From Candidatus Laterigemmans baculatus (GTDB taxonomy: Bacteria; Planctomycetota; Planctomycetia; Pirellulales; Pirellulaceae): 64,000 bases of DNA. Every line of letters begins with the position of its first letter. Within the stretch, counting starts at the first letter, position 1. The stretch is from NCBI RefSeq assembly GCF_010367455.1, contig NZ_WRPR01000112.1, positions 62,001 through 126,000 on the forward strand. Reading direction: 5' to 3'. Positions 14,587-55,963 of the stretch are shown piece after piece. Below the pieces are notes generated by a model. That model did not search any database. It was not told the origin of the DNA and worked only from the letters and a program-made list of their open reading frames with translations. The translations under genes were made by a program, and so were the position numbers.

Positions 14587-16026
14587 ATGACTCAGGCCCG
14601 CCCAGCCCCTGCCGTAACGACTCCGCCCGCCAGTGCCTCAGCCAGCGAGCGGCTGGCGGGTTTCGATCTGCTGCGGGTTGGGGCTGCGGTGGCCGTCGTC
14701 GTTCTGCACGCCACGGCTCCCTACTTGGCTCACCCGATGCCCGGGCTGACTTGGCCGGTGTTCGACCAGCCGAGTGCGATTGCCGACGCGGTGGGATGGG
14801 GGATCGAGCTGTCGATCATGCCGCTGTTCTTGATGATCGCAGGACTCTTCGCACTTCCTTTGTGGCAGCGGCACGGCGACCGCGGATTCGTGAAACATCG
14901 GGCGGTGCGGTTGCTCGGGCCGTTGGCTTTCGCCGCCGTGCTGATCCTGCCGATGGACTTGTACACGTGGCTGCTCGGCTGGGTCATCGAAGGGCAGATC
15001 GCGCTGCGCAAGATGCGGAGCCTGAAATTCGATCCCGGCGTCGACGATGGGTTGTGGGGGCTCAGCCACCTGTGGTTCCTGCACTATCTGTTCTTCTACT
15101 GCGTCGCCGCGGTCGCCGCCGTGCGGGCAGCGCGGTGGTTGGGCTCTGTCAGAAAACCTCGCCCCTCACCCCAACCCTCTCCCCCGCGATTCGCTGCGCG
15201 GCGGGGGCGAGGGAGCCTAAGGAGTCGGCGGACGAGCTCGCTGGTCGGGATGCTAGCGGGGCTCGCGCTGGTGGGCTGGGTGACGCTGGCCGCGGTCCCG
15301 GAAGTGGTGTTCGGTTTTCAGCACGCCTTCCTGCCCGTTCCCTCGAAGTGGATTTACTGTGGAACGTACTTCGTCGGCGGATTGCTGCTCGCGGCTGAGC
15401 CCCGGTTTCTCGAGTGGACGCGGCGGTGGGCGTTGCCGCTGACCCTAGGCGGCTTGGCCGCGACCGCGGTCGGGGTGGGACTCGGCTACGGATGGCTCGA
15501 AGGCCGCGGTGGAGTCCCGCTGCGGTTGCTGGCGACCGCTGTGACGGTCGTCACCGCATGGACGTTGTCGCTCGGGCTGGTCGGTTGGGCGTCCCGCACG
15601 ACCACGCTTCGCCCGAGCTGGATCGGAGGTCGTCGCCTGCGCTATGCCGCGGCCGCTTCGTTTTGGGTCTACCTGATCCATCACCCGGTGATCGGTCTGA
15701 TCCACATCGACTTGAAAGTCTACGCCCCGCAGTTGGCACCGGAGCTGAAAGTCGTGATCGCGACGGCCGTTGCGCTGTTGTTTTCCGGGCTCACGTTCGA
15801 GGTGCTCGTCCGCCGCTCACCGGTGGCTCGTTGGCTGGGGACCCCTTCGGAGTTTCGCAAGGGCTCGCGGCACAAACGCCCCGGATCGGGCCACAGCTCC
15901 GAGTCTCGTGGAGAAGCAGCCGAAGCGGCCGCGGCGTCCACCGTGGCGTTTGGGGGGCTGGCAGATAGCGGCGGGTTGGCAGATAGCGGGGGGCTACCAA
16001 ATCACCTCGCCAAGCCCGCCGCGTGA
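14587..16026 (+). CDS. Acyltransferase family 3 membrane protein with an embedded repeat
   Basis: This 479-residue membrane protein (499 if it starts at GTG 14527) O-acylates a sugar or envelope component. It begins with the family pattern RLAGFDLLRVGAAVAVVVLHAT, including the conserved R/H pair of acyltransferase-3 proteins, followed by about ten transmembrane helices; LWFLHYLFFYC and VYLIHHPVI are further family marks. After helix WFLHYLFFYCVAAVAAV the loop PSPQPSPPRFAARRGRG is encoded by a G/C palindrome of the family seen at 20735-20928, which suggests a repeat inserted in frame (15147-15231). The extreme C terminus is low complexity and overlaps the fhcC end by 33 bases, tail to tail. 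Confidence 0.82.
   Translation: MTQARPAPAVTTPPASASASERLAGFDLLRVGAAVAVVVLHATAPYLAHPMPGLTWPVFDQPSAIADAVGWGIELSIMPLFLMIAGLFALPLWQRHGDRGFVKHRAVRLLGPLAFAAVLILPMDLYTWLLGWVIEGQIALRKMRSLKFDPGVDDGLWGLSHLWFLHYLFFYCVAAVAAVRAARWLGSVRKPRPSPQPSPPRFAARRGRGSLRSRRTSSLVGMLAGLALVGWVTLAAVPEVVFGFQHAFLPVPSKWIYCGTYFVGGLLLAAEPRFLEWTRRWALPLTLGGLAATAVGVGLGYGWLEGRGGVPLRLLATAVTVVTAWTLSLGLVGWASRTTTLRPSWIGGRRLRYAAAASFWVYLIHHPVIGLIHIDLKVYAPQLAPELKVVIATAVALLFSGLTFEVLVRRSPVARWLGTPSEFRKGSRHKRPGSGHSSESRGEAAEAAAASTVAFGGLADSGGLADSGGLPNHLAKPAA
15147..15231. repeat. Family D palindrome inside the acyltransferase gene
   Basis: The stretch holds CCCCTCACCCCAACCCTCTC followed by CCCCCGCG, a short loop, and CGGGGGCGAGGG, the same words found in the two intergenic copies at 20735-20928. 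Its left edge carries CTCTGTCAGAAAACC, close to the terminal repeat of the MITE-like element at 55171-55298. No stop codon is introduced in the acyltransferase frame. Confidence 0.75.
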
Positions 16027-39713: not shown

Positions 39714-39990
39714 TGAGCCGTAGGCGCTAGCCTCGGGCCCCTTAAGCCGTAGGCGCTAGCCTCGGGCCTCGCGGCGGTGCGTTTTCCGCTGCAGGATCTG
39801 CCGTTCGTCCGGTCATCAGCCGCCACGCGCTAGCCCGGATTATTCATCAGCCGCCGGGCGCTAGCCCCCGGTTCCCGAAAACGCCGTGAGAACCGGACGC
39901 AAGAAGCGTGGCGGCTGATCGAGAAGTCGGGCTACCGCGCGCCGTCGGCTGCAGAACCCGCGGTTAGCGCCGTCGGCTCAGGGTTTTCTG
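39714..39990. repeat. Composite repeat cluster (families B and A)
   Basis: Two B left ends in tandem (TAGGCGCTAGCCTCGGGCC) lie at 39714-39768, a nested family A composite at 39816-39919, and a B right end at about 39950-39975 followed by GGGTTTTCTGACGGG, which matches the terminal repeat of the element at 55171-55298. No gene is present. Confidence 0.75.
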
Positions 39991-39997
39991 ACGGGAG

Positions 39998-40951
39998 CTA
40001 CTTCTCGCGGCGGGCCACGAAGGGAATTTCTTGTCGCGGTGCGGCGCCGAGCCGAGTTCCGGCGCGGCGGGCGACATCGACCACCGCGGTGGCGAAGGCG
40101 CGGCGCGTGGCCGGCTCGATCGTGTCGAGCTCGAGCGCCAGGTCGTGCATGGCCGACGGATTCTGCTCCGAGGCCTGCGACACTTGGGAGATGAATCGGG
40201 CGGTTTCGACAAAGTTGTGATCGGCGGTCCGGCCGATCAACCCCGACAGAGTACGGGCGATCAAGTCCGCGCCGAGGCTGTCGAGCTGGATGAAGCAGTC
40301 GAGGGTTCCGGTGACGGTCGTTCGCCCTCCACTCCCCTCGGCATAGCGGCTTTGCAGCACGAACACCGCGTTGCCGGTGATCGGTCGCGGGGCGAGTGTG
40401 CCGGTATAGCTGCCGCTGGCTAAGAACACGTGCGTCGTCGCATCGCCGTAGACGAGGTCGATCGTGCACTCGGTTCCCGCCCGGTCGTCGGCGGCCAACT
40501 GGTAGGGACCGAGCCGCCGGGTCTGGACCTGCGAAACGTCCATTCGCTGCCAAATCCCCACGAGCACTTCCGGATTGCGGACCAGGAAGATGAACATCTT
40601 CGGGTCGCAGTCGATCGCCTGCGTCGGGAGCCGGCGGTAAAGCGTCGGCGAGTCGACGATGCCGCGGATCCGAGCGGCGGCCGGAGCGGTCAACCGGTCG
40701 TAAGGGATGACGCCCCCACCCGCGTGGGCCCGGTTGCCAGCGTGGGCCTGGTTGCCAGCGTGGGCCTGGTTGCTGGGGTGAAGCTGGCTGCTGGGGCCAC
40801 TGGCCAGCCGCTGGCGGGCCTCGCCCGGCCCTTGGGCCGGAGCGATGGTCGCCGTGGCGAGGGTCGCTACCAGCGAAACCGCGGCCAGCGCCACGCTTCG
40901 GCAGGAGAGACGCGCTCGGCTGGAGACCAGCGGAATGTTGCGGCGCAGCAT
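39998..40951 (-). CDS. Secreted protein of unknown function with an Ala-His-Ala-Gly repeat
   Basis: A 317-residue product (ATG at 40951; an ATG at 41002 would add 17 residues). A signal peptide (SVALAAVSLVATLATATIA) is followed by three copies of an 18-bp DNA repeat encoding AHAGN(Q/R), an unstructured spacer, and a conserved globular part (DCDPKMFIFLVRNPEVLVGI and LGPYQLAADDRAGTECTIDLVYGD) whose closest type is a planctomycete-specific exported family. No enzyme motif is seen. It is divergent from pgk. Confidence 0.6.
   Translation of the reverse strand: MLRRNIPLVSSRARLSCRSVALAAVSLVATLATATIAPAQGPGEARQRLASGPSSQLHPSNQAHAGNQAHAGNRAHAGGGVIPYDRLTAPAAARIRGIVDSPTLYRRLPTQAIDCDPKMFIFLVRNPEVLVGIWQRMDVSQVQTRRLGPYQLAADDRAGTECTIDLVYGDATTHVFLASGSYTGTLAPRPITGNAVFVLQSRYAEGSGGRTTVTGTLDCFIQLDSLGADLIARTLSGLIGRTADHNFVETARFISQVSQASEQNPSAMHDLALELDTIEPATRRAFATAVVDVARRAGTRLGAAPRQEIPFVARREK
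40723..40776. repeat. Three-copy 18-bp tandem repeat in coding DNA
   Basis: CGTGGGCCTGGTTGCCAG occurs three times with single changes, then a decayed copy. It encodes the AHAG-type repeats of the secreted protein at 39998-40951 on the opposite strand. Confidence 0.85.
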
Positions 40952-53967: not shown

Positions 53968-55122
53968 ATGTCGGGTCCCGTCGCCGGGGTGCCGCTGCTC
54001 GATATTGCACGCGGAAACTCCCCTCTTCGCGAAGAATTCATCGAGGCGCTTGCGGGCGTCATCGATAGCGGCCGTTTTCTGTTCGGACCCGAGGTGAGTG
54101 AGCTGGAGCGGGAGGTCGCTCGGCTGAGCCAAGTCGACCACGCGATCGGCTGTGCTTCGGGCAGCGACGCTCTGCTGTTGGCCCTGATGGCGCTCGACAT
54201 CGGTCCCGGCGACGAAGTGATCGTCCCCAGCTTTACCTTCTTTGCCACCGTCAGCTGCGTTACGCGGCTCGGCGCCACGCCGGTGTTCGCCGACATCAAC
54301 CCGCGGACTTTCAACATCGATCCCGCGGCGATTGCCGCAGCGATCACTCCGGCCACGCGAGCGATCATCCCGGTGCACCTGTTCGGCCAGTGCGCCGAAA
54401 TCGACGCGATCTGCCGGCTGGCGACTCAGAAAGACATCGCGGTCGTTGAAGACGCCGCCCAGGCGATCGGAGCGGCCTACCACAGCCGGGCCGCTGGGAG
54501 TTGGGGCCAGATCGGTTGCTTCAGTTTCTATCCCACCAAGAATCTCGGCGGGATGGGGGACGGCGGGATGTTGACCGCCACGGACGCGTCGATGGCCGAG
54601 CGGCTGCGGTTGTTCGCCGCCCATGGGATGCAGCCTCGCTACCACCACCGCGTGGTCGGGATCAACAGCCGCTTGGACACGTTCCAAGCTGCCGTGCTGG
54701 GGGTGAAGATGAAGCATCTGTCGGTCGCCGTGGCGGCTCGTCAGGAGAACGCCGCCCGCTACACCGAAATGTTCACCGACGCCGGCCTGGACGAAGCGGT
54801 CGTGCTGCCGGCGGTCGATCCGCACGCCTACCACGTCTGGAACCAGTACGCGATCCGCATCGAGGCTTCCCAGCGCGACACGCTTCGCCAGCACTTGGCG
54901 GCCGACGGGATCGGCAGCGAAGTCTATTACCCGATCCCCGTGCACGCCCAGGCTTGCTACGCCTCGGAGCCGTGGAGCCGAGTCGAGTTGCCCGAGACCG
55001 AGCGGGCGGCCCGCGAGATCCTCAACTTGCCGATCTTCCCGGAACTGACGGCCGAAGAGCAGGAGCGGGTGGTGGCGTCGATCGGCAGCTTCTTCGCCAA
55101 GCAAAACCGGGCCGCAGCCTGA
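53968..55122 (+). CDS. DegT/DnrJ/EryC1/StrS family aminotransferase
   Basis: A 384-residue PLP-dependent enzyme that typically transaminates keto-sugars for surface glycans. The lysine that binds PLP is in SFYPTKNLGGMGDGG near residue 190; other family motifs are SGSDALLLALMAL, PSFTFFATVSC, PVHLFGQCA and DAAQAIGAAY. The ATG at 53968 was chosen since earlier codons overlap the leader of the divergent TlpA gene. The specific nucleotide sugar cannot be told. No other sugar-nucleotide genes are adjacent. Confidence 0.92.
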   Translation: MSGPVAGVPLLDIARGNSPLREEFIEALAGVIDSGRFLFGPEVSELEREVARLSQVDHAIGCASGSDALLLALMALDIGPGDEVIVPSFTFFATVSCVTRLGATPVFADINPRTFNIDPAAIAAAITPATRAIIPVHLFGQCAEIDAICRLATQKDIAVVEDAAQAIGAAYHSRAAGSWGQIGCFSFYPTKNLGGMGDGGMLTATDASMAERLRLFAAHGMQPRYHHRVVGINSRLDTFQAAVLGVKMKHLSVAVAARQENAARYTEMFTDAGLDEAVVLPAVDPHAYHVWNQYAIRIEASQRDTLRQHLAADGIGSEVYYPIPVHAQACYASEPWSRVELPETERAAREILNLPIFPELTAEEQERVVASIGSFFAKQNRAAA

Positions 55123-55152
55123 GTGTATGTCAGCCTTTCCAGGCTGGCACTA

Positions 55153-55357
55153 TCAGCCGCCGGGCGCTAGGCGCGGTCAGAAAACCCTGAGCCGACGGCG
55201 CTAGCCGCGGGTGCGGCAGCGAAAATTCCGGGGCTGCGAGGCCCGAGGCTAGCGCCTACGGCTCAAAAGACTGAAATCACTGGATTTTCTGACAGGGCCT
55301 AGCCCCCGGTTCCCGAAAACGCGGTGACAACCGGACGCAAGAAGCGTGGCGGCTGAT
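55153..55357. repeat. Family A palindrome interrupted by another element
   Basis: Compared with the intact copy at 39846-39919, this copy matches TCAGCCGCCGGGCGCTAG up to 55170 and resumes at 55299 with CTAGCCCCCGGTTCCC, ending GTGGCGGCTGAT. The 128 bases between are the element described at 55171-55298. Confidence 0.85.
55171..55298. mobile_element. Putative 128-bp MITE-like element with CTAG target duplication
   Basis: The left end GCGCGGTCAGAAAACCC and the reverse complement of the right end GCCCTGTCAGAAAATCC agree at 14 of 17 positions. CTAG flanks both sides (55167-55170 and 55299-55302), as a 4-bp target duplication would. Inside is a family B palindrome (CGGCGCTAGCCGCGGG ... CCGAGGCTAGCGCC). 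It carries no protein, so it needs a transposase elsewhere. The same terminal words TCAGAAAACC occur at 15148-15160 and, inverted, at 39977-39988. Confidence 0.65.
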
Positions 55358-55371
55358 GGGATGAGAAACGT

Positions 55372-55413
55372 AAAAAAAGCTCGCCGGGCCCGAGGGCTCG
55401 GCGAGCTTTTTTG
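55372..55413 (-). terminator. Bidirectional Rho-independent terminator after trxA
   Basis: A stem GCTCGCCG/CGGCGAGC with A6 before and T6 after on the plus strand, so it can terminate on both strands. It lies 28 bases after the trxA stop and also downstream of the aminotransferase gene. Confidence 0.88.
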
Positions 55414-55441: not shown

Positions 55442-55768
55442 TTAGGCTTTGACCGAGTCGAGCGCTTCTTGCAGTTGGGCCTTCGGCCGCACTCCCACAA
55501 ACGTCTCGGCGACTTCGCCCCCTTTGAAGACCAGCAGCGTCGGAATGCTGCTGACGCCGTACTTCTGCGCGGCTTGCGGGTTGTCGTCGATGTTGACCTT
55601 GCCGATTTTGACTCCGGGATTGTCGCCGGCCAACTCGTCGATCATCGGAGCGATTTGCCGACAGGGGCCGCACCACGGTGCCCAAAAATCGACCAAGACC
55701 GGGCCGTCGGCTTGGAGCACTTCGGCGTCGAAATTGGAGTCGGTAAACTCCTTCACGTTTCCTGCCAT
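55442..55768 (-). CDS. trxA: Thioredoxin
   Basis: A 108-residue thioredoxin with the active site FWAPWCGPCRQIAP near residue 30 and the cis-proline loop VSSIPTLLVFKGG near 75, otherwise standard. The ATG at 55768 is preferred to a TTG one codon upstream. It reduces cytoplasmic disulfides for enzymes such as ribonucleotide reductase. It is monocistronic, with a terminator after it. Confidence 0.96.
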   Translation of the reverse strand: MAGNVKEFTDSNFDAEVLQADGPVLVDFWAPWCGPCRQIAPMIDELAGDNPGVKIGKVNIDDNPQAAQKYGVSSIPTLLVFKGGEVAETFVGVRPKAQLQEALDSVKA

Positions 55769-55963
55769 CAAATCACCTCAAGAACGGTTGCAGTGCCGCC
55801 GCACCACCGGGGAAAGGAAATCGGTCGCGATTGCATCCGTAAGCCGGCGGCTGGGTTGCGTTTCACATTCGTTGCCGAATGCAGGATTGTAGGAACCTCC
55901 CGGGCGCTGTCAATTTGACGCACGGCCGATCCGAGCAGCAGTGTAAGCATTCGGCGTGCCACC

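Follow-up and report, generated by a model that had tools for sequence, protein, structure and literature searches.

A palindromic repeat of a planctomycete-like genome split by a probable miniature element with IS5-family ends

At one place in the 64,000-nucleotide stretch analysed here (the window; G000:C24:62001-126000, from genome G000 of 5.76 Mb in 153 contigs), a copy of a 74-bp palindrome, family A, extends over 55152-55357 and is broken after GGGCGCTA by another sequence. What is this segment, and how could it have come to lie inside a repeat? Reading the sequence, we find CTAG at both junctions, and the inverted ends of the segment are equal at 14 of 17 positions; in this the preliminary description of the DNA was correct. 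The segment is, in our view very probably, a non-coding miniature element (MITE) that shares its ends with an IS5-family (IS427-like) insertion sequence (IS) and that inserted at a TA in the family A copy, presumably mobilised in trans by an IS transposase. The features are collected in Table 1. Convergent genes border the host copy: on its left is a plus-strand frame ending at 55122, by eye resembling a DegT-type aminotransferase, and on its right a minus-strand frame (55442-55771) that by eye resembles a thioredoxin. Between these genes and to the right of the insert, 55374-55412 reads by eye as an inverted repeat with a T-run behind it, a terminator-like arrangement.

Table 1. Features of the split repeat, related features in the window, and places elsewhere in the genome where two MITE families meet
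Feature	Position	Strand	Basis or remark
Interrupted family A palindrome, left part, ending in GGGCGCTA	55152-55169	+	sequence reading, joined-site alignment
Probable TA target duplication, left copy, inside the CTAG target	55168-55169	.	judged from copies at non-CTAG targets
Probable MITE, 130 bp, hairpin type B, GG...CC	55170-55299	+	sequence, BLAST, end-motif search, copy survey
Left terminal inverted repeat GGCGCGGTCAGAAAACCC	55170-55187	+	sequence, end-motif search
Internal hairpin B, GCTAGC once per arm	55188-55265	+	DNA fold
Right terminal inverted repeat, minus-strand GGCCCTGTCAGAAAATCC	55282-55299	-	sequence, end-motif search
Probable TA target duplication, right copy	55300-55301	.	sequence; TA reading from non-CTAG copies
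Interrupted family A palindrome, right part	55300-55357	+	sequence reading, joined-site alignment
Intact family A copy, empty-site reference, 74 bp	39846-39919	+	sequence, BLAST, joined-site alignment
Remnant: partial B hairpin and one terminal repeat GGGTTTTCTGACGGGAGC	39950-39998	-	extent by eye
Remnant: one terminal repeat GGCTCTGTCAGAAAACC and a different G/C-rich filling	15143-15200	+	sequence
Abutting ends of both MITE families	G000:C139:21760-21794, C78:42609-42643, C120:16117-16151		examples

Uninterrupted forms of the split site are found both in the window and beyond it. When the two flanks were joined in silico with a single CTAG kept, the product matched the intact window copy without gaps (96.6% over 59 bp), which upholds the earlier proposal that this copy displays the empty site. 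Within a 1.447-Mb sample, about a quarter of the genome and non-random because its contigs were partly picked for matches, the joined site gave 80 junction-spanning BLAST matches (77 distinct places, 60 ungapped), and the uninterrupted form has at least 53 BLAST matches, counted with the best 40 of 364 candidates scored. Family A shows no evident target duplication of its own in 70 copies, identical 2-bp flanks occurring in 2 of them and 3-bp flanks in 1. Its copies (for example, window 39834-39919) share an asymmetric left flank with a consensus of about CCCGGATTATTC, and no right consensus appears in the 70 copies; a consensus on the left alone, together with the lack of an evident duplication, suggests that family A is a longer or directional element.

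The ends of the inserted segment recur throughout the genome. At up to three mismatches, TAGGCTCTGTCAGAAAA has 267 genome matches (129 + 138) against 7 (3 + 4) for a reversed control; exact TCAGAAAACCC occurs 42 + 35 times against 1 + 0; and a 16-base version of the end is found 113 times in the 1.447-Mb sample against 7 in the control. These reversed-pattern controls rule out chance likeness of the ends. We take the terminal inverted repeats to be 15-18 bp long, with the consensus GGCTCTGTCAGAAAACC, and judge from the sequences that they are probably those of an IS5-family (IS427-like) IS. In the own-genome loci examined, which were enriched for these elements and from which L264 and L276 were left out, there are 54 distinct copies with two ends, 60-340 bp apart. 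TA lies directly outside both ends in 23 of the 54; in the remaining 31 a clean TA is missing from at least one side, because the bases of the border or the end have changed or the register is uncertain. The targets of the 23 TA-bordered copies are CTAG (15), CTAT (3), CTAA (2), TTAG (1), TTAA (1) and CTAC (1). Over 146 distinct ends from the enriched loci, the bases found outside are, in order, G 63%, C 62% (T 21%), T 68% and A 82%, and the outside trinucleotide reads CTA at 63 ends, CGA at 15 and TTA at 13.

The empty-site comparison was applied to other copies as well. End pairing at up to 8 mismatches kept 44 pairs, of which the 36 at up to 6 mismatches were taken and 8 dropped; in the 1.447-Mb sample, 10 of the 36 joined sites have at least one spanning empty-site match and 26 have none. 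The window element resembles bacterial MITEs in being short, multi-copy, bounded by inverted ends and free of a transposase gene, and it has both a target duplication and empty sites. Folded as DNA, the whole 130 bp reaches -43.2 kcal/mol (z -6.7; 0 of 200 shuffles as good). The GCTAGC hairpin noted earlier is present, with the motif lying in the arms and not at the centre as first supposed. Similarly, words related to the ends do occur elsewhere in the window, as had been reported, but at 15149-15158 and 39982-39991, each with one end recognised only. By eye, the filling of the remnant at 15143-15200 resembles a 120-bp element at G000:C38:14287-14406. As for timing, the transposition had been called recent, which these data do not support: the ends of the window copy are partly decayed, and its nearest copy is 97% identical over 123 bp (128-bp BLAST query, best 40 of 305 candidates).

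The two junctions at this locus leave the length of the target duplication ambiguous, because at a CTAG target a TA duplication around an element with G...C ends and a duplication of all four bases give identical letters. This left room for the first reading, a 128-bp segment with a 4-bp CTAG duplication. Copies at non-CTAG targets separate the two. If the G and C belonged to the target, they should vary there; instead, the inner G on the left and inner C on the right, next to TA, are kept in 5 of 5 IS copies in the related genome G029 and in 7 of 8 informative MITE copies in the own genome. A TA duplication fits this constancy, and we accordingly read the insert as 130 bp. The IS427 group points the same way: of 11 members in the table excerpt of PMC3281130, 10 duplicate 2 bp and a single one 4 bp. 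We regard the 4-bp duplication as improbable; the duplication is most likely TA, with CTAG being the preferred target joined to the element's own end bases.

An IS with closely similar ends is present in the same genome. It lies at G000:C100:175308-176263 (956 bp), has the ends GGCTCTGTCTGAAAACCC...GTAGTTTTCAGACAGAGCC and stands between CTA on one side and TAG on the other. The two frames in it, P0001 (DUF4096, PF13340) and P0002 (DDE_Tnp_1, PF01609), hit the NCBIfam IS5 model NF033580 consecutively (2-115 and 116-255), both above cut-off, which identifies an IS5-type DDE transposase. The second frame is offset by -1, and an A6G5 run ahead of the first frame's end is a possible frameshift site joining both frames. 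The ends of this IS, the sole copy found in the genome, read TGTCTGAAAA in place of the TGTCAGAAAA of the commonest MITE end. The mismatch is a single base, as it is in G029; the actual mobiliser may therefore be lost, unassembled or another element. P0002 has no further match in the own genome at 0.001. Other DDE_Tnp_1/DUF4096 genes (L248, L250, L252, L253) were considered as mobilisers and rejected, as no end pair occurs in the stretches examined around them, L252 having a lone match with 4 mismatches. By eye, the MITE filling and the IS interior have nothing in common beyond the ends.

The linkage of these ends to a transposase extends to related genomes. Among 40 genomes including the own, 9 have a P0002 match at 1e-20 or better, and 20 contain the end motif when 2 mismatches are allowed. 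Thirteen of these 20 have a single match and 2 have two, which is the control level; the motif is clearly above controls in G000 (188), G009 (79), G013 (32), G029 (28) and G035 (10). G029, which belongs to the same order and consists of a single contig, has 14 homologous transposase loci; at 12 of them both ends are present, separated by 939-940 bp, and one end is recognised at the other 2. All 12 two-ended copies are bordered by YTA and TAR, with TA on both sides as in a 2-bp duplication, and 5 lie at non-CTAG targets. G009 has 79 end matches (4 in the control), yet no transposase match at 1e-20. At 12 further transposase loci in other genomes an end pair is found at 2 only, one in G007 (942 bp apart, 1 and 3 mismatches) and one in G011 (920 bp apart), where 4 mismatches on each end point to a different end family. 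Blastopirellula marina DSM 3645 contains a 942-bp IS with exact MITE ends (19 of 19 letters), so that here the ends match those of an autonomous element; its transposase shows 66% identity along 157 aa, and about 0.6 kb further on there is a 121-bp MITE bounded by these ends and by CTAG. The end motif CTAGGCTCTGTCAGAAAAC is present in 12 named stretches of other genomes, 11 from planctomycetes or Phycisphaerae and one from Buttiauxella, an indirect sign that the genome studied here is planctomycete.

These results have mechanistic implications. The transposase of an IS5-family (IS427-like) IS would be made by joining two frames and would bind the MITE ends in trans; the MITE would then insert at TA, mostly inside CTAG, with duplication of the TA. 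At this locus it would have landed in a family A copy between two convergent genes. Matching ends, TA or CTAG borders, empty sites and ISs whose ends are identical or almost so all support the earlier suggestion of a nonautonomous element moving in trans, a movement that we infer. On the other side stand the one-base mismatch of the own IS, the many end matches of G009 beside no transposase match at 1e-20, the few end pairs at the 12 further loci, a filling unlike the IS interior, and the copies with imperfect TA borders, CGA ends or joined sites lacking a spanning match. That suggestion had been offered with the caution that copies might have inconsistent ends and that no transposase might have matching ones; the excess of end matches over the control and the partner IS speak against both.

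Could recombination between repeats instead have amplified or exchanged the family A copy and the MITE together, with no need for a separate transposition at this locus? Both are high-copy, and the same A site is occupied in the same orientation at G000:C95 (L012) and G000:C131 (L025). Judged by eye, however, the host A copies at these loci are not the same in sequence, and at L011 the orientation is opposite. Furthermore, the 15 of 147 first-family ends that lie in A-like contexts do so at several different CTAG positions, and other copies (26 of 36) lie in DNA without a repeat match. Amplification as a composite is thus an unlikely account of this locus. Less probable still is that these are REP-like palindromes moved by a tyrosine transposase of the RAYT/REPIN type, with the end likeness arising otherwise. 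In its favour, the fillings form stable hairpins, and family A is a high-copy palindrome lacking an evident flanking duplication; against it, DDE IS elements with the same ends occur in three genomes and a TA duplication is present, which is not a known trait of REPINs.

If separate insertion at TA is accepted, the distribution of targets bears on why the MITE lies in a repeat. In the 1.447-Mb sample, 336 of 1102 CTAGs belong to families A or B or lie no more than 10 bp away from a copy; the two families span about 12 kb. With about 30% of examined CTAGs in palindromic repeats A and B, the element would often land in repeats, its own kind included. A repeat match was found at 10 of the 36 tested insertion sites, so that, on this rough comparison with 336 of 1102 CTAGs, nesting is at about the chance level for a CTAG-seeking element, and a preference for repeats beyond their CTAG content was not found. 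It is our guess that genes are spared through insertion into repeats.

The fillings between the ends are diverse. When hairpin classes were assigned by short motifs at up to 3 mismatches, the 54 two-ended copies comprised 25 with hairpin B, 25 with hairpin C (the CCCTCCCCCCGGGAGGGT type), 1 with both and 3 with neither. These copies range from 75 to 328 bp, and some contain tandem duplications. Among 49 B hairpins (at least 70% of the length, 1.447-Mb sample), ends are found on both sides of 12, on one side of 21 and on neither side of 16, which indicates that B occurs also without recognisable ends. Other fillings stand behind first-family ends in relatives, of about 100 bp in G009 and of 130 and 250 bp in G013, and in planctomycete MAGs (about 160 and 215-222 bp). 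The partner end is missing at no fewer than 15 of 30 loci of relatives under the limits used, and none of 9 in G035 has one. In G013, the elements of about 250 bp at L288 and L294 appear by eye to be the 130-bp MITE of that genome split by a segment of about 120 bp with an inverted repeat that contains CCTAGTCCGTC.

One possible reading, which we put forward tentatively and rate somewhat below even, is that the ends are a carrier for interchangeable, unrelated REP-like hairpins: B, whose arms contain CTAG; C, with abundant CCCTCCCC/GGGAGGG; one further type; and a hybrid of B and C, with other fillings in other planctomycete lineages and with repeats growing by nesting. Because hairpin B and family A contain the preferred CTAG, each B insertion would add landing sites, and growth by nesting would follow. 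The data do give a case in which several unrelated hairpins stand behind one set of transposon ends and in which repeats offer sites for further insertions. They also link a large repeat set of a planctomycete-like genome with a transposase of the IS5 type and with a rule of target choice.

Set beside known systems, the elements form a new family within a familiar class, the bacterial MITEs, and go with an IS5-family element; interchangeable fillings and nesting are what is unusual about them. Like the IS427 group as characterised in PMC3281130, the partner IS has a two-frame IS5-type DDE transposase, ends of about 15-18 bp and a 2-bp duplication; the copies found here are longer (939-956 bp against 832-865 bp in the 11 group members tabulated there), and the miniature elements here carry no gene. 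RUP of Streptococcus pneumoniae is likewise a MITE with IS ends, TA in its target and a frequent location inside other mobile elements; it differs in going with IS630-Spn1, and the excerpted account in PMC2229807 makes no mention of modular fillings. MITEPye1 of Paracoccus yeei is also a short, hairpin-forming, non-autonomous element between direct repeats, but the excerpt of PMC11578231 describes it as IS1182-related and of low copy, with 1-3 per chromosome. GTAG/CGTC-tagged REPs, as described in the excerpt of PMC3733652, are likewise hairpins of high copy number, and Planctomycetes are one of the phyla from which they are reported; they differ in being linked to tyrosine transposases. In the open-licence literature searched, we recognised no description of the repeats reported here.

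A second high-copy MITE family, seen in the own genome, has the ends CTGGACAGCGCCACTTT (for example G000:C120:15947-16133, L103; also L091 and L098). Its ends number 98 genome-wide against 0 in the control. Four complete copies measure 187, 187, 122 and 113 bp, and three have identical 4-bp borders (CTAG, CTAG, TTAG); of 49 ends, 28 are at CTAG, 8 at TTAG and 8 at CTAA, targets of the form YTAR. Many of the places listed for this family are separated from the end of their contig by about 70-150 bases, and the assembly thus breaks within it. At five transposase loci tested for an IS with CTGGACAGCGCCACTTT ends there is no pair; in relatives the search was for the motif only. Of the 98 second-family ends, at least 20 directly abut a first-family end at one common CTAG or TTAG, by the positions listed, which for the first family are those with 0 or 1 mismatch; in the loci examined, which were enriched for such cases, 20 of 52 do so. 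This abutting of the two families looks to exceed what target frequency alone would lead one to expect. The second-family end motif is also abundant in the relatives G035 (38 + 39) and G016 (31 + 36), and in G014, G021 and G024, with controls of 0-1.
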